From a virus, in IMG/VR virus record IMGVR_UViG_3300046389_000196, positions 1 through 22,082 of that record: a DNA stretch of 22,082 nucleotides; one strand, written 5' to 3'. Both the position numbers and the translations under genes were made by a program. Each line of letters begins with the position of its first letter. Within the stretch, counting starts at the first letter, position 1. This document shows positions 10,901 through 22,080 of the stretch, one piece after another. The notes beneath the pieces were generated by a model, which worked only from the letters and a program-made list of their open reading frames with translations, was not told the DNA's origin and ran no database searches.

Positions 10901-11615
10901 TGCCATCCGAAACTACAGATTCATCCATCTTTTCAGATACAACAATTTTAGTTCCATCTATTTCATCTGCCATCTCGCCACGAGCAAGGTCTCTCAACTT
11001 TCCAGCAGATCTATGAAATGACCCTTGTGTATTAAACACAGCACTACCAGCAGCACCAAGAACCGTTGAGAAAGCGGTGGCAGTCAAAAGATTAAGACCA
11101 GTTTCTCCTGTTGTATTGACAGGGTCAAATGGCGCGCGAATAGTTTCTGCCGCTGCGCCAAAAGCAAGGCCACCCTTTGCGGAGGCAAGAGCAGCTTGCC
11201 TAACAGTCATGCCCCCCTTTGCAAGCAAACCAAGTTGACCCACAATAGGAATTGCAAAACCTAAAGCTAATGGATCTGCAAGCCCGGCGACCAATGCACC
11301 AGAAAAGAAATCAGACTCAGCAAGCACATTTCTACGAGACCTGTTTTCATCAATAGAGTTTTTAATAAACTTAAGGTGGTCTAAGTTTTTTGCTCGCGCA
11401 AAGTCAGACTCAAATCCCTCATAACCATCGGCATCCTCAAATGGATTAAAGTCTGGGTCACGATCCATTGCTCCAAAAAATATTTCTTCTTGCGTCCTAG
11501 CAATGATAGGAGAATAAGAATAACCAAATGCAGCCTTAAAACTTTCGTCAAAGGATGGTTCTTTTTCATGCCTATAAAAATTATTTGGATTAAGACTTGC
11601 GTAATATTCCGACAT
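7917..11615 (-). CDS. Large internal virion (ejection) protein, gp16-like, 1232 aa
   Basis: By size and order this is the large internal core protein of a T7-like particle, which would be ejected and help carry DNA across the cell envelope. Hydrophobic Gly/Ala-rich stretches at about residues 104-160 and 174-194 could insert in membranes. Charged helical, coiled-coil-like segments lie around 500-530 and 590-610. Weaker hydrophobic helices occur at about 808-830 and 1092-1110. I see no lytic transglycosylase motif, unlike T7 gp16, so virion muralytic activity is not supported here. The start ATG 11615 overlaps the previous stop (TAATG), with AGGGA just upstream. The functional call rests mostly on synteny and size. 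Confidence 0.75.
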   Translation of the reverse strand: MSEYYASLNPNNFYRHEKEPSFDESFKAAFGYSYSPIIARTQEEIFFGAMDRDPDFNPFEDADGYEGFESDFARAKNLDHLKFIKNSIDENRSRRNVLAESDFFSGALVAGLADPLALGFAIPIVGQLGLLAKGGMTVRQAALASAKGGLAFGAAAETIRAPFDPVNTTGETGLNLLTATAFSTVLGAAGSAVFNTQGSFHRSAGKLRDLARGEMADEIDGTKIVVSEKMDESVVSDGKSIRVNPKKIEQTFDEKPWMADQADLPEGVDLIPENAFNTPTEYKHFLINRESLRKSDPRQAAESSADFQNRINREALSRTYEGYNIKKTMFTDSIWFKLIPTPAKTILLDKDVPNWLKRDYQLMEGNGAMAMEQNIAGRGTQSIRQRIPVYTVRANNELLRIRREYNKEVMGKEATTQLSGVDLSSGQKRKMIGRQTEFDKWFEDTADMYVRASNPAKRAKIMQDASPAQKKTFEFLRQHYDSFLQSSQDVGLLRNVKNVNAHLTKIRAELEELNMREQELDLAPAREKTADDIFLEQNAEKYKEALKKQMASLMKDEDANAFVRKYNVVHDRVEAKSLGELDLRESQTADLRAKAQDLEEQIAYYEGYQNYAGSRNDYIFPIYYDKKLLTSSEDAREGLTAAFERYLTKETHFWREGKNDAPGEWIRKPTDYSPRETAEQIVRNILEENPDDILDSAVSPAGGKHLRHRAIDIPIDEVAPFIIKNESVLYTYAERMGRKIEWTRNFGDKTINDIMLQIESDMKAKGIKETKIAKVKAAFMGDYQRVMGRLIENPDSLTNQAARAIKETAGITYLHSAGLSAVVDTAMLVFERGLGKTIAPLIDKDFRPLFVKAAGDIDTVVDQTGLARGMVQDRYIGDSIRGIQPNAVERVFNPITNAFYNIPLLGNNLGMVTRYSKIVDGVFRQSELIRMSIDVSKNKAKASDIEYLARYGINEDDARAIASMGDVWEADPSGKFYYANRSKWLTDTEAQRNLALRWDTAMNSGVANTIMHATSFDKPLIVDGATYVRWYPWMKSLTMGKLDFDPRVSTQNVKMAKIETGVLGMPFQFMNFTLAATNRITGQMFDPARQHRLQGAVALLGLSYISLSLKKPDWWFESKTAGELAARIADHSGLFGAYGDLFYLANHAAIEHGLNDESYDFLKGRYRVKEGDSLWDAAGAGPGMVREWYMATNDMLDGYTKDGRSKFYYNTPSLPLLKLVGLNEDMRDFWTK

Positions 11616-13678
11616 TACATTCCCTGTGCAATTTGCCTACCAATAATAGTCTGCTCAAAGTCTAACTCATCTCTAGCTTGGGCAGCTTCCGCCTCTTTTT
11701 GAGCCTTAGATATTTTTCTAACTTGCTTCATACGAAGTTGTGTTGCCTTGTGCTTAACCATATCAGTATCAAACACTAAATACTTACCATCTGATCGAGT
11801 TAAGAACTCACCAGTTTCAGTATTTTCTAAAAAATACATTGCTCGTTTGTGGTCTGATTTTGTTTCAATAGGAACAAGCCTTACATTTCCCTCGTCAGGT
11901 CTAATGTCTAAGTTTTCTTTCCATAAACCGTTTCGATCTATTAACTCTTTATTGATAAAGTAATCAATATAAGTATCACCAAACTCTTCTGGAGACTCCT
12001 CAATCAAAGCTGATTGATTGCTTCTCTCAAAAAACAATTCCGGTGCATATATAGAAGCCTCTTCTTCTGAAAGATACTGAGAGGGTCTTGATATTGTTTC
12101 AAAATATTCTTTTGTTGAACTTTTAACATCAGACAAACTATCGCTTAACCTTACCTGTTCTGCAACAACTGGATAAAGTCTTTCGCGGACAGTGGGGGGA
12201 TAGTCATCAAGAATATTATCAGACAGTTTTTTAATTGACTGCATAAAGTTATCAGAATCTTGAAACTCTACTTCACTTCCGCCTATTGTTTTCACCTTGT
12301 CTAAAAGGTCTGGATTTGAAATGGAGGCGTTAATAACATCAATGCCCTCTTGAAGTCTGGCATTACCATAAGACGCGCGCCAGTTAGAAAGAAACCTCAT
12401 TCGAGAGTATGTAACAGGGTCTAAGCCATTGTTGGTTTTTACAACGCCCCGTGTTGTGCTTCGTTCTTTTGTTCTATCAAAAAACGTAATAGCATTTTGC
12501 ACAGCTACGGAGTCAGCACCAGATTTCCCAGAAACGACAGCCTCAAATAAATTTACTTGATTTGTAGAATATTGACCTTGTTCATTTGCATGTCCAATCA
12601 ACTCACGAGACTCTATAGAATCGGGGTCTCCTAAAAACTCAAGGCCAGTAAGTTGTGCTTCCCTAAATATCTTATCACTATCTTCTGGCGTTGAGACACC
12701 AAGTTGAAAACGCATTGCAGCATTTTGGTCTTCTCTTATTTTAGTTTCTTCCGAAGCAATTTTTCCAGAAAGCTCAGACAAATTACTTGAAATTTTATTC
12801 CAAGTTTCCGTATCAGCAGCTTGCATTTCTTTTAACTGTGGGAATTTTTTTAAACTTTCCTCACTCCAGCCAAGAAGTCTTGCTTCAGAAGATAACTTTT
12901 TTAAATCTCTACTGTTTGCTGCATTAGCTTTTACAGCATAATTTATAATCGCAGCGGATTCGTTTTGAATAAACTCGCGGTCAACAGATGCGTAAGTATC
13001 TGGGGATACGCCAGAGGATTTAAATCTCTCAAGCGCATGCAAGCCCAACTCACGCCCTTCGGAAATGCCCCCATTAGAAATAAGGGTATTAACCCCCCTA
13101 GCAGCATCTTGTATAAAAGTCCTTGCATTAGATTCCGCCAAGTCATTAGCAGCTTGAACTTTTTTTAGTCGTAAGTTGTTGTATGTGTCACTGCCATATT
13201 GGGCTGAAAGGTTTTTGTAATCCTCTAAAAACAACGAGGCATTTGAGCCTGCAATAAGTGCTTCTTTTTCAGAACTATAACTGCTCCAAAGTTCTTTGAA
13301 AATCTCTGGGTCGCCCTTTGATTCAAGGCTTAAGTCAACAGCAGCGTTCTTTAAGTTAATTGTTTCTTTTATTTCATACTGCGCTGCCATTTGTTTTAAA
13401 GCGGCACTTGTCCCTGCTCCACCCATTAAGAGTTGATTGGGAAGTTCTTTAACAGTAATTTCTCCAGTTTCAGAGTCGCGCGTTACAGCTTCTTTTCCAT
13501 ACTCTTCCCCAGCAGACTGAGAAAGAGCGGCTGCAACACGAAAGCCTGCATCTGAAACTGTTTTATAAAAATCGCCTTTTGCTGCTGCTGCTCTGTCAGA
13601 ACCAGTTCTAACATTTACAACACCAATTCTAGGTGTTTTGTAAGATTGTCCTGCAACAGGTCTTTTTAACTCAGCCAT
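11615..13678 (-). CDS. Internal virion protein, gp15-like, 687 aa
   Basis: A predominantly helical, charged protein with an Arg/Lys-containing N-terminus (MAELKRPVAGQSYKTPRIGV) and long amphipathic helices. There is no membrane segment and no enzymatic motif that I recognise. Its place between a 153-aa gp14-like gene and the 1232-aa gene, and its size, match the middle internal core protein of T7-like phages, which assembles in the capsid on the portal and is ejected into the cell. It starts three bases after the preceding stop (TAA GTT ATG) and ends in a TAATG overlap. Confidence 0.7.
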   Translation of the reverse strand: MAELKRPVAGQSYKTPRIGVVNVRTGSDRAAAAKGDFYKTVSDAGFRVAAALSQSAGEEYGKEAVTRDSETGEITVKELPNQLLMGGAGTSAALKQMAAQYEIKETINLKNAAVDLSLESKGDPEIFKELWSSYSSEKEALIAGSNASLFLEDYKNLSAQYGSDTYNNLRLKKVQAANDLAESNARTFIQDAARGVNTLISNGGISEGRELGLHALERFKSSGVSPDTYASVDREFIQNESAAIINYAVKANAANSRDLKKLSSEARLLGWSEESLKKFPQLKEMQAADTETWNKISSNLSELSGKIASEETKIREDQNAAMRFQLGVSTPEDSDKIFREAQLTGLEFLGDPDSIESRELIGHANEQGQYSTNQVNLFEAVVSGKSGADSVAVQNAITFFDRTKERSTTRGVVKTNNGLDPVTYSRMRFLSNWRASYGNARLQEGIDVINASISNPDLLDKVKTIGGSEVEFQDSDNFMQSIKKLSDNILDDYPPTVRERLYPVVAEQVRLSDSLSDVKSSTKEYFETISRPSQYLSEEEASIYAPELFFERSNQSALIEESPEEFGDTYIDYFINKELIDRNGLWKENLDIRPDEGNVRLVPIETKSDHKRAMYFLENTETGEFLTRSDGKYLVFDTDMVKHKATQLRMKQVRKISKAQKEAEAAQARDELDFEQTIIGRQIAQGM

Positions 13679-13681
13679 AAC

Positions 13682-14143
13682 TTACGTCTTTCTATAGTAG
13701 TCAGCTGCTCGTAAAGCAGTATCAAGCAAACTTGCTCGCGCTTCAGATTTATACGCCGCCGCCGCAGACGCGCCTGATCGCCTAACCGCCTCAGCCTCTC
13801 TTTTTATGGACTCACGCTCACGATCAACGCCAGCACGAAGACGGTCAATATTTCTGCCGTATTTTTCACGCCCGGCTTTTCTGATTGCCTCTAAGCTTCT
13901 GTCTGTTCGTCCTGCATATGCAGCTGCCGCAACATTGTAACTTTCCATCTCCTGCAACTGTTCCTGCATATCAAGATGCTCTTGTCCAGCACGCTCTTCC
14001 ATCATGCCTATTTGCAAAAGTATTTCATTAGCTTGACGCGCAGCTTCCTGCCTTGCGCGCCTTGCGGCCTTGCGCTTGCTACGGCTTCCCATAATCCCAC
14101 TAGCTATAGAAAGCCCTGCTGAAATTGCTTGCACGTAAGCCAT
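13682..14143 (-). CDS. Internal virion protein, gp14-like, 153 aa
   Basis: The short hydrophobic N-terminus (AISAGLSIASGIMG, about residues 5-18) is followed by a strongly basic stretch (SRSKRKAARRARQEAARQA). The rest is a long Ala/Arg/Glu-rich helix, probably coiled coil, ending YYRKT. This layout is typical of the smallest internal core protein in T7-like and related podoviruses, which goes to the outer membrane after ejection. The ATG overlaps the previous TAA (TAATG, 14141-14145). The gene order portal ... gp11, gp12, gp14, gp15, gp16 supports the call. Confidence 0.75.
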   Translation of the reverse strand: MAYVQAISAGLSIASGIMGSRSKRKAARRARQEAARQANEILLQIGMMEERAGQEHLDMQEQLQEMESYNVAAAAYAGRTDRSLEAIRKAGREKYGRNIDRLRAGVDRERESIKREAEAVRRSGASAAAAYKSEARASLLDTALRAADYYRKT

Positions 14144-16368
14144 TAGAACGTCACCTCAATAACCATACCATTTAGTTGTAAATCAAAAGGAACAGACTGA
14201 CTAACTGTAACAGACGGGTCTTTTGAAATACCAATTAACCTAAACTCTTTTCTACCAGTAAACTTAGACCTATCCAAAGAGAAATCATCGTTTACATTCC
14301 TGATAATCATATCCTTACTATTGACCGATGCAGACAAGGTATCCTGCAAATCAAGAGTAACCATATCAATCTTGCGCGGCGCAGCAGTCATCGGGCCACC
14401 ACCCATCAACGCATCAATAGGCATTGTCTGTAGGATGGGGGTAAATTGATAGCCAATGTAAGCTGTTGTAATTTCTTTAACGCTAGATACATCAACCTCC
14501 CCAGAGGCCACAGTAAACTCGCCAATGTAATCTGTGCCGCTAACCACGCGAACCACAGCACCATCAGAGAACTGGCTGCTAACGTCAAACACACCAGCGG
14601 TGCCAGTGAACTCATCGCAGTAATCCATCGGCATCTCTTCGTTAAACTTTTCAAGGTAGTAACGATTAGTGCCATCGCCTTGATCCCGAACAGCAATGGA
14701 ATACACATTGCGGTCAACAGCGCAAACACTGTGGAACTTGCCCGATGTATCCCACAGCATCCACCCAGCGCGTTGATCGCCGCGAGAGGAGTAGAAGACA
14801 GACATAGTGCCATCATTGTTAATCAGGAAGCAGTATGACTCAGCCCGGTCAAAGCCACCTTTAATACTTGCAGATTGGATGGGAGAACGCATCAGATGGG
14901 TAGCAGTCACAGACACATTCTCTGTGTTGTAGGCTTGCTCCACTTCACTATACACATAAGACCCCAACATCTTGCCAGAGGCTTGCGTATAGAGGGTTGC
15001 ACCATCAAAGGGCTGTGGTCGCATATAGGATGAACCATAGGGTGTTTGACGCTTGATTATGGCGTTTGCAGGGGTAACAGGCCTATCAGTGAAAGCAGGA
15101 ATGAATGACTCAGAAGAAGCAGAGAATATCTGTAGGTCACGATTAACCACAAGATGACGGATATGAGAGAACTCACCAAAGTTAGAGTTAAGATCAATGG
15201 CATCACTGTCCGCCCCCGTGCCTATGTCGAAGTTAAAGAAGTTGGCAGACTTGGAAGCCCAGACATGACCGGGCTGTGCTGTTGTGCCAGCAAACCACAG
15301 GCGACCTTCGTGGAATGTTACGGCAGCAGGGTAGCCGCGAACAGCAGAGTAAGACTGCTCATACCACTCTGGGGTAGCAGCGGCACTTGAGATTTCAACA
15401 GAGCCGCCACCAATAGCAGAAGAGGAGGCATTAGACCCAGCAATATATTCAAAGGTATTAAGGTCAATAACCTTGCTTACCTGTTTGTTTGTTCCCTCCA
15501 AGTGAGAGGCGTTAAGACCTCCCAAAGACCCCACGCGATCAATAGAAAAAACGTTATTAGGAGCCATGCCGTGAAGAGGCATAGTAACTTGAACAGCACT
15601 AGTGCCAGCAAACACCTCAATAGAATCTGGCGCAAGGCGACGAAGTATCGTGCCAGTAATGTCCACCCTAACTTGAGTTGCGCTAACATATGTTTTTATC
15701 TCACAAGGCGTGTTACCAATCAGCAGATACGAACCAACATGACCAGATACAAAGTAATTACTGCTTGCAGTTACAAGAACATTCGTGCCGGACGTAGCTT
15801 GAGGGTCTAGTGTAACACCACCTTTTTGAAATTTGTAGTAGGGGTGTGTTGGAGAATCATCATTACCATTGTCCTCAAACTCAAATACCTCAGAGACAAA
15901 GGTCTTCAACCCAGTCCGGCGAATAAGGCGAGGGGGGAATGTTTCATGGCAGATAATTGTTACATCGCCAGAGGAGGCCATTGTAATTTCTTTTAGCTTT
16001 GCCGTTGTCCACGGGCAACTGCTAGAGCCAGACAAGCTAACGGGCGTGGTATCAACCTCACCAGTAGTCGGGTTAATAAAGAAAATATCGAGGGCGTTGT
16101 TCTTAAAACAAAAGATATACTGCTCGTCATCCGAAAAGATAAACGGCTCAATGCGAATCTCTAACTCGTTTGCAGGAGTTACAGTATCGCTAAACTGATA
16201 GATGAACTCACCACCAGCGCGTTTCTTTACACCACCCTCATTGATGATAATAAAGTTACGCACCTTCTGCGCGCCAGCCTGATACACAGCAGCATCCACA
16301 CGAGATGTAAAGGATGGGCTAAGTTCGCCAAACTGAAAGCTGTGAAGCGGAATCTTAATCTTCGCCAT
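14143..16368 (-). CDS. Tail tubular protein B/nozzle (gp12-like), 741 aa
   Basis: The N-terminal signature FQFGELSPSFTSRVD, then YQAGAQKVRNFIIINEGGVK and KRAGGEFIY, is characteristic of the podovirus tail tubular protein B/stabilisation protein family. The rest is beta-rich with propeller-like repeats (for example the region around residues 335-420, with GRLWFAG and ASKSANFFNFD). The family length is usually 700-800 aa, so it is complete. It would form the lower tail nozzle below the gp11-like ring and anchor the fibres. The start ATG 16368 shares bases with the TAA of the gp11-like gene (TAATG). Confidence 0.85.
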   Translation of the reverse strand: MAKIKIPLHSFQFGELSPSFTSRVDAAVYQAGAQKVRNFIIINEGGVKKRAGGEFIYQFSDTVTPANELEIRIEPFIFSDDEQYIFCFKNNALDIFFINPTTGEVDTTPVSLSGSSSCPWTTAKLKEITMASSGDVTIICHETFPPRLIRRTGLKTFVSEVFEFEDNGNDDSPTHPYYKFQKGGVTLDPQATSGTNVLVTASSNYFVSGHVGSYLLIGNTPCEIKTYVSATQVRVDITGTILRRLAPDSIEVFAGTSAVQVTMPLHGMAPNNVFSIDRVGSLGGLNASHLEGTNKQVSKVIDLNTFEYIAGSNASSSAIGGGSVEISSAAATPEWYEQSYSAVRGYPAAVTFHEGRLWFAGTTAQPGHVWASKSANFFNFDIGTGADSDAIDLNSNFGEFSHIRHLVVNRDLQIFSASSESFIPAFTDRPVTPANAIIKRQTPYGSSYMRPQPFDGATLYTQASGKMLGSYVYSEVEQAYNTENVSVTATHLMRSPIQSASIKGGFDRAESYCFLINNDGTMSVFYSSRGDQRAGWMLWDTSGKFHSVCAVDRNVYSIAVRDQGDGTNRYYLEKFNEEMPMDYCDEFTGTAGVFDVSSQFSDGAVVRVVSGTDYIGEFTVASGEVDVSSVKEITTAYIGYQFTPILQTMPIDALMGGGPMTAAPRKIDMVTLDLQDTLSASVNSKDMIIRNVNDDFSLDRSKFTGRKEFRLIGISKDPSVTVSQSVPFDLQLNGMVIEVTF

Positions 16369-16955
16369 TATGACAGCCTTTCAGTGATAAACCTCGAAGT
16401 CGTAAGTTTGCGTGTCGTGTTCTGCTGGCTGTCAAGGTTACGGGCTTTTGCCATAAGGTTGTTTGCCTTGATTTCCATAATCTGTGTCAGACCCTCGTTC
16501 CGAGCAATAGAACTTGCAAAGATGGCAGCAAGGGAATACTCGACAGCAAGTGTAAAGTAGGAAGGCCAATCAGACTCATCTGCACGATAGATGTAATCAG
16601 CAATAACCTGATCTTGGTCTGAGGTGTTGGTAAATACCTTGTCGCCGTAGATTGTATGGTTCGTATTGTTATCATTTACAGTAACGGCATTAAGCATCAA
16701 AAGGTTAGATGGAAGCTGATAGGCCGCATCAAAGCGTCCAGTCGGCTCATCTGATAAACGACTAAGCTGCGCTTGCTCAGTAGCAAAACGCCAGCGTGTG
16801 TTGCAGAGACTGGCTTGCGCTACGTCTTCATACATATTAACAGCGACCAGTGCCTCTGTTGTATTGTCTTCAAACGAAGTAATAGGCTCTGCCCCAATAA
16901 GGATCAAAGCCCGTGAACAAATGTCGATAGCACTGTTAGCTACTGTGGATGTCAT
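16368..16955 (-). CDS. Tail tubular protein A/adaptor (gp11-like), 195 aa
   Basis: Resembles the T7 gp11 family. It opens with AIDICSRALILIGAEPITSF, then NMYEDVAQASLCNTRWRFAT, DAAYQLPSNLLML, and a C-terminal region YRADESDWPSYFTLAVEYSLA. The roughly 190-200 aa length fits. It would form the ring between portal and nozzle. GAGG lies five bases before ATG 16955, a good ribosome site. It is separated from the capsid gene by 56 bases that hold a GC-rich hairpin, so its expression may be lower than that of the capsid gene. Confidence 0.85.
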   Translation of the reverse strand: MTSTVANSAIDICSRALILIGAEPITSFEDNTTEALVAVNMYEDVAQASLCNTRWRFATEQAQLSRLSDEPTGRFDAAYQLPSNLLMLNAVTVNDNNTNHTIYGDKVFTNTSDQDQVIADYIYRADESDWPSYFTLAVEYSLAAIFASSIARNEGLTQIMEIKANNLMAKARNLDSQQNTTRKLTTSRFITERLS

Positions 16956-18981: not shown

Positions 18982-20514
18982 CTATACCACACCACCGCCT
19001 TGTTGCTGCGCTTGCATCTGCGCTATCATTTGTTGCATCTGTTGAATCTGTTCACGCTCGGCTTCGTCTCTGATTAGGTTATCAGGAACGCCAAACTTCT
19101 TAGCCAAGTAAACCGCTGTCTCTTCTGAGTCGATAAGCAAGTTGACCATCTCCGGCCCGAAGTTTGCACCAACTACCTCAAGGAATCTCGCAACAGTTGT
19201 GATGTCCTGATTAGACTGGGCTTGCGCCAAGGGAGATACACTCCGAATTTTTACTTCACGACCATTAACTGTTGGGAGATCAATGCGACCCTGCTTACGC
19301 AGAATGTAAACTACACGTTGCAGAATGGGCTGAACCATCTCTGCTTGCAAGCGACCAAAGGCAGAACCAATACGGCGGCTCAAGTCAGCCATGCGTTCTG
19401 CAATTTCGGTAGCCGTGGCGGGTGTCCGGTTCGGATCACCGAGCATATCATTATACAATGCGCGCTTAATGTTCATCCGCATGTCGTTAAGAACAAGATT
19501 GGCAACATCAAAGCTTCCGGCTGCCGCAACAGGCTGTAACCCATTTGAGCCGGGTGCTTTAGGAATGACAGTCCCCGGAACAAGATTGATCGTATCGACA
19601 TTGATAATCCCATCATCATCCATCTGGTAAATACCAGAGATAGCCATCTGTGCATTTTCCAATACAAGCTGGATTGTAAGGTTGGTTGTCTTAATTGCAG
19701 ACAGAGCGTTTACCAATGGGCCGCGACCATATACTTCGCCAGCAGCTTTAGACCAGCGGAAGCAAACAAACGGATTGCTGCCCACGCCTTCAAAGGTGTC
19801 TTCAAAGATTAACTCGCCATGAGTTTTATCAATGGCGTAGTAGCCGTAACGCTCTTGGTTGGGCTTGTCATACAGGCGACATACAACCTCAAGAACCTTG
19901 CACTTCTCCTCACCCTTGCGGTTAATCATATCCTGCATTTTGGGGGAGAGTTTCGCTTTGGGATAAACAATCTTTATGTCGTTATGGCGAATCTCACGCT
20001 CACGATATACATGGTCAATGCGGTCATCGGGGCCATTCTCAAGAACGACCTTTGGAAGGGGGATAGCACTGAAACGGATTGGGTTTACTGCATCTCCCTC
20101 TTCAACCAGCAAGCAACCAGTTCCGACAGCCAAGTCCATGAATGACTCATGCACCTCTTGGGCAAAGTTACTGTTTGCAAGAATCTCAAAGATATATTCT
20201 GTGACCTCATCAAGGCTGTTGTTAATTTCATCTGCTTCTTCGGGCGGCACTTCCGAGCCAGCAACCAAGTCAGACCAACGAGCGAAGTTAGGAACAAGCC
20301 CAGACTGCAAACGAGAGGCAAACTCTTGAACGCCAACTACCGCAGTCTCGTCAAAGATTCGGTCATCACGGCGTTGACCCGGCGCATTAAAGTAAAAGCC
20401 TTCACGCTGGGGGAGAGCATAGTCGTAACACTCTTGGAAGAGATCTTCAAAGGGAGTGCGTTGAGTTCGGGCAGTCTCATACTTCTTGATGTAATTTTTA
20501 GCTATTTTGTCCAT
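18982..20514 (-). CDS. Portal protein (head-tail connector), 510 aa
   Basis: The dodecameric portal through which DNA is packaged and ejected. It matches the podovirus head-to-tail connector family (PF12236) in length and motifs. These are RTPFEDLFQECYDYALPQRE near the N-terminus, the RIFDETAVVGVQEFASRLQS helix, VGTGCLLVEE, FVCFRWSKAAGEVYGRGPLV (about residues 249-268), and PNRTPATATEIAERM (about 363-377), followed by a long helical C-terminal part. It ends in a Gln/Met-rich tail (QIQQMQQMIAQMQAQQQ). The start ATG 20514 overlaps the TAA of the preceding small gene (TAATG), with AGAGG ten bases upstream as ribosome site. Confidence 0.92.
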   Translation of the reverse strand: MDKIAKNYIKKYETARTQRTPFEDLFQECYDYALPQREGFYFNAPGQRRDDRIFDETAVVGVQEFASRLQSGLVPNFARWSDLVAGSEVPPEEADEINNSLDEVTEYIFEILANSNFAQEVHESFMDLAVGTGCLLVEEGDAVNPIRFSAIPLPKVVLENGPDDRIDHVYREREIRHNDIKIVYPKAKLSPKMQDMINRKGEEKCKVLEVVCRLYDKPNQERYGYYAIDKTHGELIFEDTFEGVGSNPFVCFRWSKAAGEVYGRGPLVNALSAIKTTNLTIQLVLENAQMAISGIYQMDDDGIINVDTINLVPGTVIPKAPGSNGLQPVAAAGSFDVANLVLNDMRMNIKRALYNDMLGDPNRTPATATEIAERMADLSRRIGSAFGRLQAEMVQPILQRVVYILRKQGRIDLPTVNGREVKIRSVSPLAQAQSNQDITTVARFLEVVGANFGPEMVNLLIDSEETAVYLAKKFGVPDNLIRDEAEREQIQQMQQMIAQMQAQQQGGGVV

Positions 20515-20984
20515 TATTTAAAATACCTCTGAAAGAAACCAGCACCACCAGCTTCGCCGGACAATAAGGATGCCTTGCCTCGTTTACGCTGCATACCAAT
20601 AGTAGCTTGCTCTACCGCCTTCTCTCTGCGGCGACGAATTTCTTGAAACTCAGGTTGCTTTTGGACATCAGACTTAAGTTGTCCGCGCAAATCAGATGCA
20701 AGAGAACCAACAGTCTCGCCAAGCCCTTTCAGTTTTGAAGAATAATAAGAGCCAACCGCGCCGGGACTGCGCGATTTTTTTTGTATTTCTTTTGCTTCGG
20801 AATATGCTTTCTCAGACTCTTTCCTAAAGTGAGAAATAGTTCGAGGGTCAACGCCAGCCGAAGCGGCTTCCTTAAATAAAGATTCAGGAACAGAGTAAGA
20901 TGCAACAAAAGCAGCTTGCCTTTGTTTAGCTGCTAAAGCTTGACGCTTTCTCTGTCGTTTTTGTGCTGACTGAGATAATCCCAT
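20514..20984 (-). CDS. Small basic protein, paralogue B, 156 aa
   Basis: Unknown function. A basic N-terminus (QKRQRKRQALAAKQRQ) leads to a helical middle with EAASAGVDPRTI and a C-terminal block RREKAVEQATIGMQRKRGK then ASLL and GGAGFFQRYFK. The upstream neighbour has the same C-terminal block and the same EAA.AG.DPRT motif, so the two genes are tandem paralogues. Podoviruses often carry small proteins with a conserved Gly-rich C-terminal tail next to the portal; they are probably minor virion or packaging proteins, but no mechanism is visible. Both of its ends are TAATG overlaps. Confidence 0.7.
   Translation of the reverse strand: MGLSQSAQKRQRKRQALAAKQRQAAFVASYSVPESLFKEAASAGVDPRTISHFRKESEKAYSEAKEIQKKSRSPGAVGSYYSSKLKGLGETVGSLASDLRGQLKSDVQKQPEFQEIRRRREKAVEQATIGMQRKRGKASLLSGEAGGAGFFQRYFK
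20515..20640 (-). repeat. Direct repeat, copy 1 (3' end of paralogue B)
   Basis: This stretch aligns without gaps to 20985-21110, exactly 470 bases away. In the first 40 bases (20511-20550 against 20981-21020) I count three differences. It includes the stop codon and the overlapping start codon of the next gene. It is the DNA trace of a tandem gene duplication. Confidence 0.75.
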
Positions 20985-21592
20985 TATTTAAAATACCTTT
21001 GAAAGAAGCCAGCACCGCCAGTTTGACTTGAAAGAAGTGACGCTTTGCCACGTTTGCGTGTCATGCCAATAGCAGCTTGTTTTACAGCCTTTTCTCTACC
21101 GCGACGAATGCTCACCAAGTCTGCTTGCCGTGCAGCATCAGAGGTTAAGCTGGCCTTCGAGCTTTGAGTCTGCTCTGCAATAGCCTTTTCCCGCCTAATC
21201 CTTTGAGATGCAGAACTGCGTGGCCCTCTGCCTTTAAGTTCGGGCGTGGTGTAAGTCGAAATCAAACTTCTTTTTAATGCTTCAACTGTTCGAGGGTCAG
21301 AGCCAGCAGCAGCAGCTTCCGCTAGTTCTGGCTGTCCAATTTTTGCCAGTTCTGCTTGATAATTTTTTGTAAAAAGATCTGCTGTTTGTTGCTTTGTATA
21401 TTGTCGATAAGAAGCTTTGCCACGCCGAACAGAGTAAACAGGATCGGGAACACGACTAAAGATTGCAGAAGCAATATCGGGATCAACGTCTTTTGCCAAA
21501 CCCAATTCAGAAATAAGGTTTCGTTTAGCTTCGTGTCGACGTTTTTCACGAGCCTCTCTATTACGTTGGATAACTCCACTAGGCAGTCCCAT
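20984..21592 (-). CDS. Small basic protein, paralogue A, 202 aa
   Basis: Unknown function. It is longer than its downstream paralogue. A basic N-terminus (NREAREKRRHEAKRN) is followed by an insertion of about 50 residues not seen in paralogue B, then ELAEAAAAGSDPRT, and a C-terminal block RGREKAVKQAAIGMTRKRGK then ASLL and GGAGFFQRYFK. It is placed directly after the terminase large subunit with a TAATG overlap; AGGA seven bases upstream of ATG 21592 is a good ribosome site. A role at the portal vertex or in packaging is inferred only from location. Confidence 0.7.
   Translation of the reverse strand: MGLPSGVIQRNREAREKRRHEAKRNLISELGLAKDVDPDIASAIFSRVPDPVYSVRRGKASYRQYTKQQTADLFTKNYQAELAKIGQPELAEAAAAGSDPRTVEALKRSLISTYTTPELKGRGPRSSASQRIRREKAIAEQTQSSKASLTSDAARQADLVSIRRGREKAVKQAAIGMTRKRGKASLLSSQTGGAGFFQRYFK
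20985..21110 (-). repeat. Direct repeat, copy 2 (3' end of paralogue A)
   Basis: The partner of the repeat at 20515-20640: same register and same stop/start overlap. Identity is high over the first 40 bases and falls to roughly three quarters by eye further in. Both copies also carry the purine-rich ribosome site that serves the next gene (AAAGG here, AGAGG in the other copy). Confidence 0.75.
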
Positions 21593-22080
21593 TACTTCAT
21601 CCTATTCCAAAAACCTTGTTTCCCTTGCTTGGGTTTCCGTGTAAATATATCAAAGTCCCGCTTCATAGTAAACGGTTTAGCGGTCTTGTTATTTCCGAGG
21701 ACTTCACGGCCTTCACCACCACCAAGCATTAAGTATTGTAAAGCATCATGTATATGAGAGAACCTATTCTTATCGGGCTTGTCATCGTAACGCTCGCCGG
21801 ACACCTGCATACGCCGATACCCATAGCCACCATCAAAACCTTTGATCAACTCCTTGCATCGCGGGTCTATTAAGATACCCGACTTGCCCTCAACCAAACG
21901 ATTAAGTGTGCCAGCCACAGCCTCAATACGCAAGGAAACATCGTTGGATTGTGCGGGACGCGCAGTAAGACCAGCACCCCGAAGCACTTGGAACGGAGTG
22001 CTTTCATCCGTTTGCGCGCGGAAGTCACCAGCAGGGTCACCAATAATATTTACCTCACACCCACTATAGCGTGTGGCAAT
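21592..22080 (-). CDS. terL: Terminase large subunit, C-terminal nuclease part (partial, N-terminus outside window)
   Basis: The frame is open to the right window edge, so the ATPase half and start are missing. The visible 162 residues are the RNase H-like nuclease end of TerL. They contain IIGDPAGDFRAQTDESTPF, GLTARPAQSNDVSLRIEAV, LNRLVEGKSGILIDPRCKEL, GGYGYRRMQVSG, and the closing PDKNRFSHIHDALQYL motif, which carries a conserved acidic metal ligand. TerL cuts concatemeric DNA and, with its ATPase domain, pumps it into the procapsid through the portal encoded downstream. The Met at 21987 is internal, not a start. The gene ends in a TAATG overlap with the next gene. Confidence 0.92.
   Translation of the reverse strand: MATRYSGCEVNIIGDPAGDFRAQTDESTPFQVLRGAGLTARPAQSNDVSLRIEAVAGTLNRLVEGKSGILIDPRCKELIKGFDGGYGYRRMQVSGERYDDKPDKNRFSHIHDALQYLMLGGGEGREVLGNNKTAKPFTMKRDFDIFTRKPKQGKQGFWNRMK

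Follow-up and report, generated by a model that had tools for sequence, protein, structure and literature searches.

Two small genes lie between the terminase gene (TerL) and the portal gene of an uncultured phage, and their products end in the same C-terminal tail. What are these proteins, how did they come to share an end, and on which partner might that end dock? The original prediction, made from the DNA sequence, had been a tandem gene duplication whose tail docks on a shared partner, perhaps portal or terminase. The window analysed here (the whole stretch of DNA, 22,082 bases) is an uncultured virus record that belongs to a podovirus, judging by its genes, and its source is a marine short-tailed phage. 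On the minus strand the genes run TerL (3′ part), A, B, portal, Bbp19-like, scaffold, major capsid protein (MCP), adaptor, nozzle and gp14-like. The features are as follows.

20984–21592, minus strand: gene A, 202 aa, A-type helical body with the shared tail (ORF, BLASTP, body tree, AF2)
20514–20984, minus strand: gene B, 156 aa, B-type helical body with the shared tail (ORF, BLASTP, body tree, AF2)
20987–21052, minus strand: tail of A, last 22 codons, conserved (alignment; profile 62.7 bits, by construction)
20517–20582, minus strand: tail of B, last 22 codons, conserved (alignment; profile 64.0 bits, by construction)
21278–21322, minus strand: A.AG.DPRT block of A (G, D and R the same in all 32 proteins of the alignment)
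20829–20873, minus strand: A.AG.DPRT block of B (alignment)
20996–21000, minus strand: AAAGG in the tail of A (codons CAA AGG), resembling a ribosome-binding site for gene B (codon use)
20526–20530, minus strand: AGAGG in the tail of B (codons CAG AGG), resembling a ribosome-binding site for the portal gene (codon use)
18982–20514, minus strand: portal, the head-tail connector (PF12236, E 2.5e-101)
21592–22080, minus strand: TerL, 3′ part, running off the window (phrog_6672, E 1e-4)
14143–16368, minus strand: nozzle (tail tubular protein B, gp12-like), the proposed docking partner (PF25675, E 2.3e-9)
16368–16955, minus strand: adaptor (tail tubular protein A, gp11-like; PF17212, E 7e-5)

The full size of TerL is 506 aa in the near-identical contig L003. 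In L178, also near-identical to the window, the nozzle frame is broken (502 of 741 aa), possibly through an assembly error.

Two paralogous genes with a conserved tail

Both ORFs of the original prediction were recovered, A at 20984–21592 and B at 20514–20984, and the stop codon of each overlaps the next start. As had been claimed, the two proteins share the DPRT block and the entire tail GGAGFFQRYFK (BLASTP, 57/124 residues identical, 46%, E 5e-28), and the DNA at 20515–20640 aligns with that at 20985–21110 without gaps, with 97/126 bases equal. The best alternative placement of this 126-base stretch in the window, on either strand, reached 54/126, and TATTTAAAATACC, allowing at most one mismatch, occurred in the window at 20515 and 20985 alone; two matches were found in 0/100 shuffles. 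The extra length ascribed to one copy is real and comes to 46 residues instead of about 50. An origin of A and B as unrelated genes with only the tail in common is ruled out by the 124-aa homology. In more distant arrays (L069–L071, L075–L081 and L085–L093), the bodies look unrelated by eye.

A and B carry both features that define the group, namely a C-terminal tail match and a position in the TerL–portal slot; their tail scores are high by construction, because the profile was built from tails including theirs. It was derived from 82 interval proteins, of which 64 passed a motif filter, and reduction to unique sequences and removal of L038 and L039 left 56. In a scan of 3039 ORFs (the window plus 25 loci), A and B were the only window ORFs listed with a tail-profile match, and every listed match above 7 bits was a small ORF in the TerL–portal interval; the diverged tail of L039 was absent from the listed matches.

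The tail follows the pattern G[KR].SLL[ST]..GG.GFF..YF. Across 32 aligned proteins, conservation covers G.DPR, a single Q and several tail positions, LL, GG.GF and Y among them, and the aligned bodies of the close group mostly carry the DPRT block and a Q..IR.RR helix. The AF2 model of A has a helical body with block pLDDT values of 72–90 up to residue 180, save for 58 at residues 121–130, and 14 of its last 15 residues are below 50. The body of B was also modelled as helical, with pLDDT of 54–60 from residue 131 onward and a short predicted helix at 148–155. With the A model as query, a Foldseek search of the PDB yielded nothing at E 0.001. The net charges are +20 (A) and +17 (B); tail-bearing array proteins average +7.4 per 100 aa, compared with +10.1 for T7 gp7.3, and some distant tail proteins carry almost no net charge (0 to +2).

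The arginine codon of QRYF and ERYF tails was AGG in 18/18 genes of types A, B and C (the last a third body type, found in relatives), many of which are closely related, while AGG made up 37/338 arginine codons elsewhere. This codon apparently doubles as the ribosome-binding site of the overlapping next gene. The last 21 coding bases of A and B are identical at 20/21 positions, and GG.GF..Y is encoded by several synonymous codons across tails. The DNA signal is not universal, because the first gene of L049 (TRYF) uses AGA, with no overlap with the next start, and GGY-type tails are without the AGG. At the end of TerL, KQGFWNRMK (21592–21621, minus strand) also has AGG for arginine, just ahead of the overlapping start of gene A; its likeness to GFFQRYFK perhaps reflects only an embedded ribosome-binding site.

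Relatives and history of the array

Relatives were found by scanning viral contigs with A, B, C, the portal and two nozzles; the portal scan contributed the best 80 of 561. In the TerL–portal interval, A is present alone in L002, L005 and L016, B alone in L006, A with B in the window and L001, B with C in L009 and L012–L015, and all three in L008; the remaining relatives have other bodies there. At the score cut, the 53 distinct intervals held one tail gene (33), two (14), three (2) or none (4), counts that are not population frequencies because similarity to the window's genes decided which loci were used. Closer inspection of the zero-scoring intervals showed one tail gene in each of two (L073 and L097) and a diverged tail bearing an insertion in each of the others (L038 and L039). 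A tail gene scoring at least 7 bits occupied the slot in 89/89 loci (48 distinct) in which TerL, portal, MCP, adaptor and nozzle follow one another in this order, a set again picked by similarity to the window's genes and compiled without the cultured-phage and gp7.3 loci (L108–L151), L018, L019 and L021–L023. The number of such genes per relative is one to three, not simply one or two. In L075–L081, the second gene of the interval ends in GQRRSLLRPAARRPYYG or near it, a different tail that the profile missed, and in some of these a 58-aa protein with HYLKDGTK comes next. Among annotated phages, tblastn gave nothing for A or B at E 0.1, nor for two relatives of 72–75 aa at E 1.

In a tree of 30 bodies, A (100/99), B (86/80) and C (100/99) each formed one group, the B clade being moderately supported. 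Paralog tails from the same genome (nine pairs) showed synonymous differences of 0.57–0.77 and nonsynonymous differences of 0.12–0.20. Because synonymous sites are near saturation and amino acid changes are few, the pairs are old and the tail has been kept as protein; A and B are an old pair under purifying selection. Recent duplication or gene conversion within a genome was rejected for the nine pairs on the basis of the near-saturated synonymous sites and the clade structure. Nor does the predicted tandem duplication in this lineage stand, since the three body types fall into distinct clades, and different relatives carry different subsets of them.

A tree of the tails, which offer few columns, disagrees with the body tree. 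L005 (A body) and L063_2 (which groups with B) fall among nine rows of GGY tails (92/91), together with L049_1, L053_1 and L055_1, and L006 (B body) sits with the A tails of L016 and L001 (92/87). L006 and L016 are equal at 100/102 terminal bases and diverge beyond. These comparisons indicate that tails were swapped between paralog types of different genomes and that bodies and tails recombine. As read from the two trees, the history would be that of a mix-and-match set of one to three genes, not of a tandem duplication.

The partner of the tail

Tail distances were compared with those of TerL, portal, Bbp19, scaffold, MCP, adaptor and nozzle. In 11 close loci (near-duplicates L001, L008 and L012 excluded), tail and nozzle distances correlated with rho 0.63 (0/2000 permutations). 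The correlation was 0.57 given the portal (2/2000) and 0.57–0.63 given each other gene, and the values for TerL, portal, Bbp19, scaffold, MCP and adaptor fell to −0.13 to −0.01 given the nozzle. With L008 and L012 added (13 loci), the nozzle reached 0.72, and the portal given the nozzle 0.09. In 34 loci outside the close group, the portal given the nozzle gave 0.55, and the nozzle given the portal 0.06 (137/500); over all 47 loci the two were equal, at 0.63 each. A flawed 24-locus run that included the broken nozzle of L178 gave 0.61 for the portal and 0.49 for the nozzle. In the mosaic close group, then, tail type tracks the nozzle, and outside it the portal is the better correlate, a signal that may come from linkage of neighbouring genes. 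The co-variation depends on few independent exchanges, and sliding windows on the 502-aa nozzle part gave rho values of 0.42–0.66, with no sharp contact region. The original prediction of paralogous proteins with a docking tail is supported. Of its two suggested partners, TerL finds no support near the window (rho 0.06 for the C-terminal 162 aa), and the portal fails in the close group (−0.01 given the nozzle) and is favoured only outside it.

Individual exchanges are informative. L039 resembles the window in portal (96%), MCP (97%) and TerL C-terminus (98%), its nozzle is 65% identical, and its tail is FFGGYLKG. L016, with an adaptor of 66% and a nozzle of 95% identity (the contig ends inside the nozzle), has kept QRYF, and QRYF is retained in L032, L035 and L036 despite gp14 identities of 42, 42 and 50%. 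The nozzles of L039 and L048 are about 92% alike, with a tail distance of 0.61; both tails end in GGY[LF]KG, and that of L039 is without GG.G and carries an insertion.

Exchanges were also seen in neighbouring genes. Adaptor and nozzle were swapped separately in L016, L039 and L048, phages with 94–97% identical portals, and in L016 the adaptor is of the L039 type (93%) and the nozzle of the window type. The gp14-like gene (13682–14143, minus strand) and the following core genes (11615–13678, minus strand) diverge strongly beside a nearly identical nozzle; in L036, identity to the window is 50% for gp14 and 21% for gp15.

Our preferred reading, which we hold to have about an even chance of being correct, is that A and B, both small and basic, function in the tail channel in the manner of T7 gp7.3 and have diversified as a cassette array, with the tail docking on the nozzle. 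Docking on the portal instead, with the proteins acting as portal-associated assembly factors or as gp6.7-like core proteins on the portal barrel, is possible, although we regard it as unlikely. The portal gene adjoins, the tail tracks it outside the close group, and relatives of about 70 aa have an MC plus P/K-rich start in common with gp6.7, which surrounds the portal barrel according to excerpts of PMC11784390. Against this, A and B are without the MC start, the tails of L039 and L048 differ from the window's despite portal identities of 96% and 93%, the portal correlation disappears close to the window once the nozzle is accounted for, and adjacency alone can co-inherit tail and portal. 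It is rather improbable that the bodies are cargo, that is, variable host-directed or DNA-protecting domains that a shared targeting tail brings into the virion for ejection into the cell. Such a role would fit the body/tail swaps and the presence in each genome of one to three proteins whose widely differing bodies carry the same kind of tail, as well as the ejection of both T7 gp6.7 and gp7.3 from the virion (excerpts of PMC11784390), but the close-group bodies mostly share the DPRT block and the Q..IR.RR helix, and the tested A, B and C proteins had weak Pfam/PHROGs matches, none to an enzyme, toxin or anti-defence protein.

We consider it very unlikely that the bodies are DNA-binding packaging proteins like the terminase small subunit. 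The matches to phrog_4044 that suggest it, along with the position beside TerL, are not significant (B, E 0.038; C of L008, E 0.016; second gene of L063, E 0.021), and A has none; its one PHROGs match is phrog_23209, of unknown function (E 0.0041), and its model is without a Foldseek match at the cut given above. In MEP301, moreover, the gene annotated as terminase small subunit is placed elsewhere, upstream of TerL. Slighter still is the chance that the shared 3′ ends are conserved at the DNA level, as a ribosome-binding site, a joint for recombination or a product of recent conversion, and not for protein function. The 20/21 match between A and B, the invariant AGG of the 18 genes and the A-type tail on the B body of L006 speak for this reading, which can account for the last few codons only; as a full explanation it is contradicted by the synonymous divergence of same-genome tails, by the several synonymous codons that maintain GG.GF..Y, and by the AGA of L049 and the GGY tails.

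Comparison with cultured phages and T7

The same slot is found in the Pelagibacter phages Hodr (gp012), HTVC028P (gp50, gp49), HTVC034P (gp59, gp57) and Skadi-7, and in Bordetella phage BPP-1 (Bbp22). On the tail profile, 5/44 upstream proteins of cultured phages outscored each of their own 2000 shuffles: Hodr gp012 (31 bits), HTVC028P gp50, HTVC034P gp59, MEP301 gp42 and Skadi7_5. By eye, three of these phages have two tail-sharing small proteins each, with different bodies and GRRSTILT-like tails, encoded upstream of the portal:

L109, 1788–2672: small-protein pair of HTVC028P
L110, 2381–2986: small-protein pair of HTVC034P
L112, 2169–2986: small-protein pair of Skadi-7

Except in Hodr, the Pelagibacter tails end GRRSTILT...KKSLLG, not GGAGFFQRYF, and the second copies were missed by the tail profile. 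HTVC034P gp57 is linked to Bbp22 by a tblastn match with E about 1; a PDB search with the BPP-1-like protein gave nothing relevant. Among the matches listed (titles and abstract openings) in mostly open-access literature on gp7.3 and gp6.7, terminase–portal small proteins, nozzle or plug proteins and Bbp22, no paper describing the array appeared.

In T7, six copies of gp7.3 anchor through residues 84–98 on two adjacent gp12 subunits where nozzle and adaptor meet, the N-terminus, mostly basic and not resolved, surrounds the end of the DNA, and residues 2–15 of gp6.7 encircle the portal barrel (excerpts of PMC11784390). By analogy, the predicted helical, positively charged body of A or B would lie in the portal–tail channel near the DNA end, and the flexible C-terminal tail would attach to the nozzle hexamer close to where the adaptor joins, as T7 and the tail–nozzle co-variation together suggest. 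The proteins might assist in mounting the nozzle, keep the DNA end in place and depart at the start of infection, as inferred from T7; T7 particles without gp7.3 do not adsorb. Phages of this group encode one to three of them, with differing bodies and with tails that would suit their own nozzle, recombination has reassorted bodies and tails, and, as codon use suggests, each next overlapping gene would be translated from a site within the preceding tail codons. More tentatively, and with the balance of probability against it, the array may form a combinatorial plug, in which non-identical proteins share the six nozzle sites via one exchangeable tail, and a new nozzle leads to re-matching of the tail cassette by recombination. 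The tail would then act as a transferable address label specific to the nozzle and would mark gp7.3-like proteins in podoviruses. Together, the tail motif and the slot make it possible to look for candidates in uncultured podoviruses at large; the array may reveal where the counterpart of a T7 tail protein is encoded in such phages, and the partner to which the tail has to be matched can be read from mosaic genomes. An array of one to three copies also raises the question of whether different proteins sit on one hexameric docking ring.

Profile searches did not place A and B in the gp7.3 family. Against Pfam and PHROGs, neither matched the gp7.3 family at E up to 1, and T7 gp7.3 as a control matched PF11653 (VirionAssem_T7; 2.8e-61) and phrog_1320 (9.7e-30). 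The tail HMM missed gp7.3 (−0.9 bits, 993/2000 shuffles as good). In a PSSM test of the GGKKSLSVARSSGGGIN tail, T7 was borderline and off register (109/5000), and Dickeya phage JA10 was in register (36/5000). hhalign aligned the tails of the window proteins with those of gp7.3 in a single register at the C-terminus, with a score of 15.5 and a probability of only 7.5%; 0/300 full column shuffles and 4/300 shuffles of the last 25 columns were as good. The 31 gp7.3 relatives yielded 16 distinct tails, all with GGKKSLS and otherwise variable, a universality that is partly selection because AGGKKSLS was one of six search patterns. Membership of A and B in the gp7.3 family thus fails on these searches; since the HMM fails and the register support is modest, we claim a likeness of working, not membership. 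Excerpts of the P-SCSP1u and PhiM1 papers (PMC11440229, PMC10575957) make no mention of gp7.3.

Like T7 gp6.7 (PF17570), A and B are small proteins encoded upstream of the portal, gp6.7 being a virion protein, and the single-gene relatives of about 70 aa start, as gp6.7 does, with MC followed by P/K-rich residues. Unlike gp6.7, A and B are without the MC.SPK start and without a PF17570 match (control: T7 gp6.7, 3.4e-28), and the tails differ. The likeness to T7 gp7.3 (PDB 9jyz) is broader. Both kinds of gene lie shortly upstream of the portal gene, with gene 7.7 between 7.3 and portal gene 8 in T7, and both encode basic proteins with a diverged upstream part and a conserved Gly/Ser-rich C-terminal tail of similar pattern, G[KR].SL......[GS]G.G. 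In contrast to the 99-aa product of the single T7 gene, the array proteins have larger helical bodies with a DPRT block (up to 247 aa), an aromatic FF..YF end and one to three paralogs. Taken together, the view that A and B work like gp7.3 is moderately supported.
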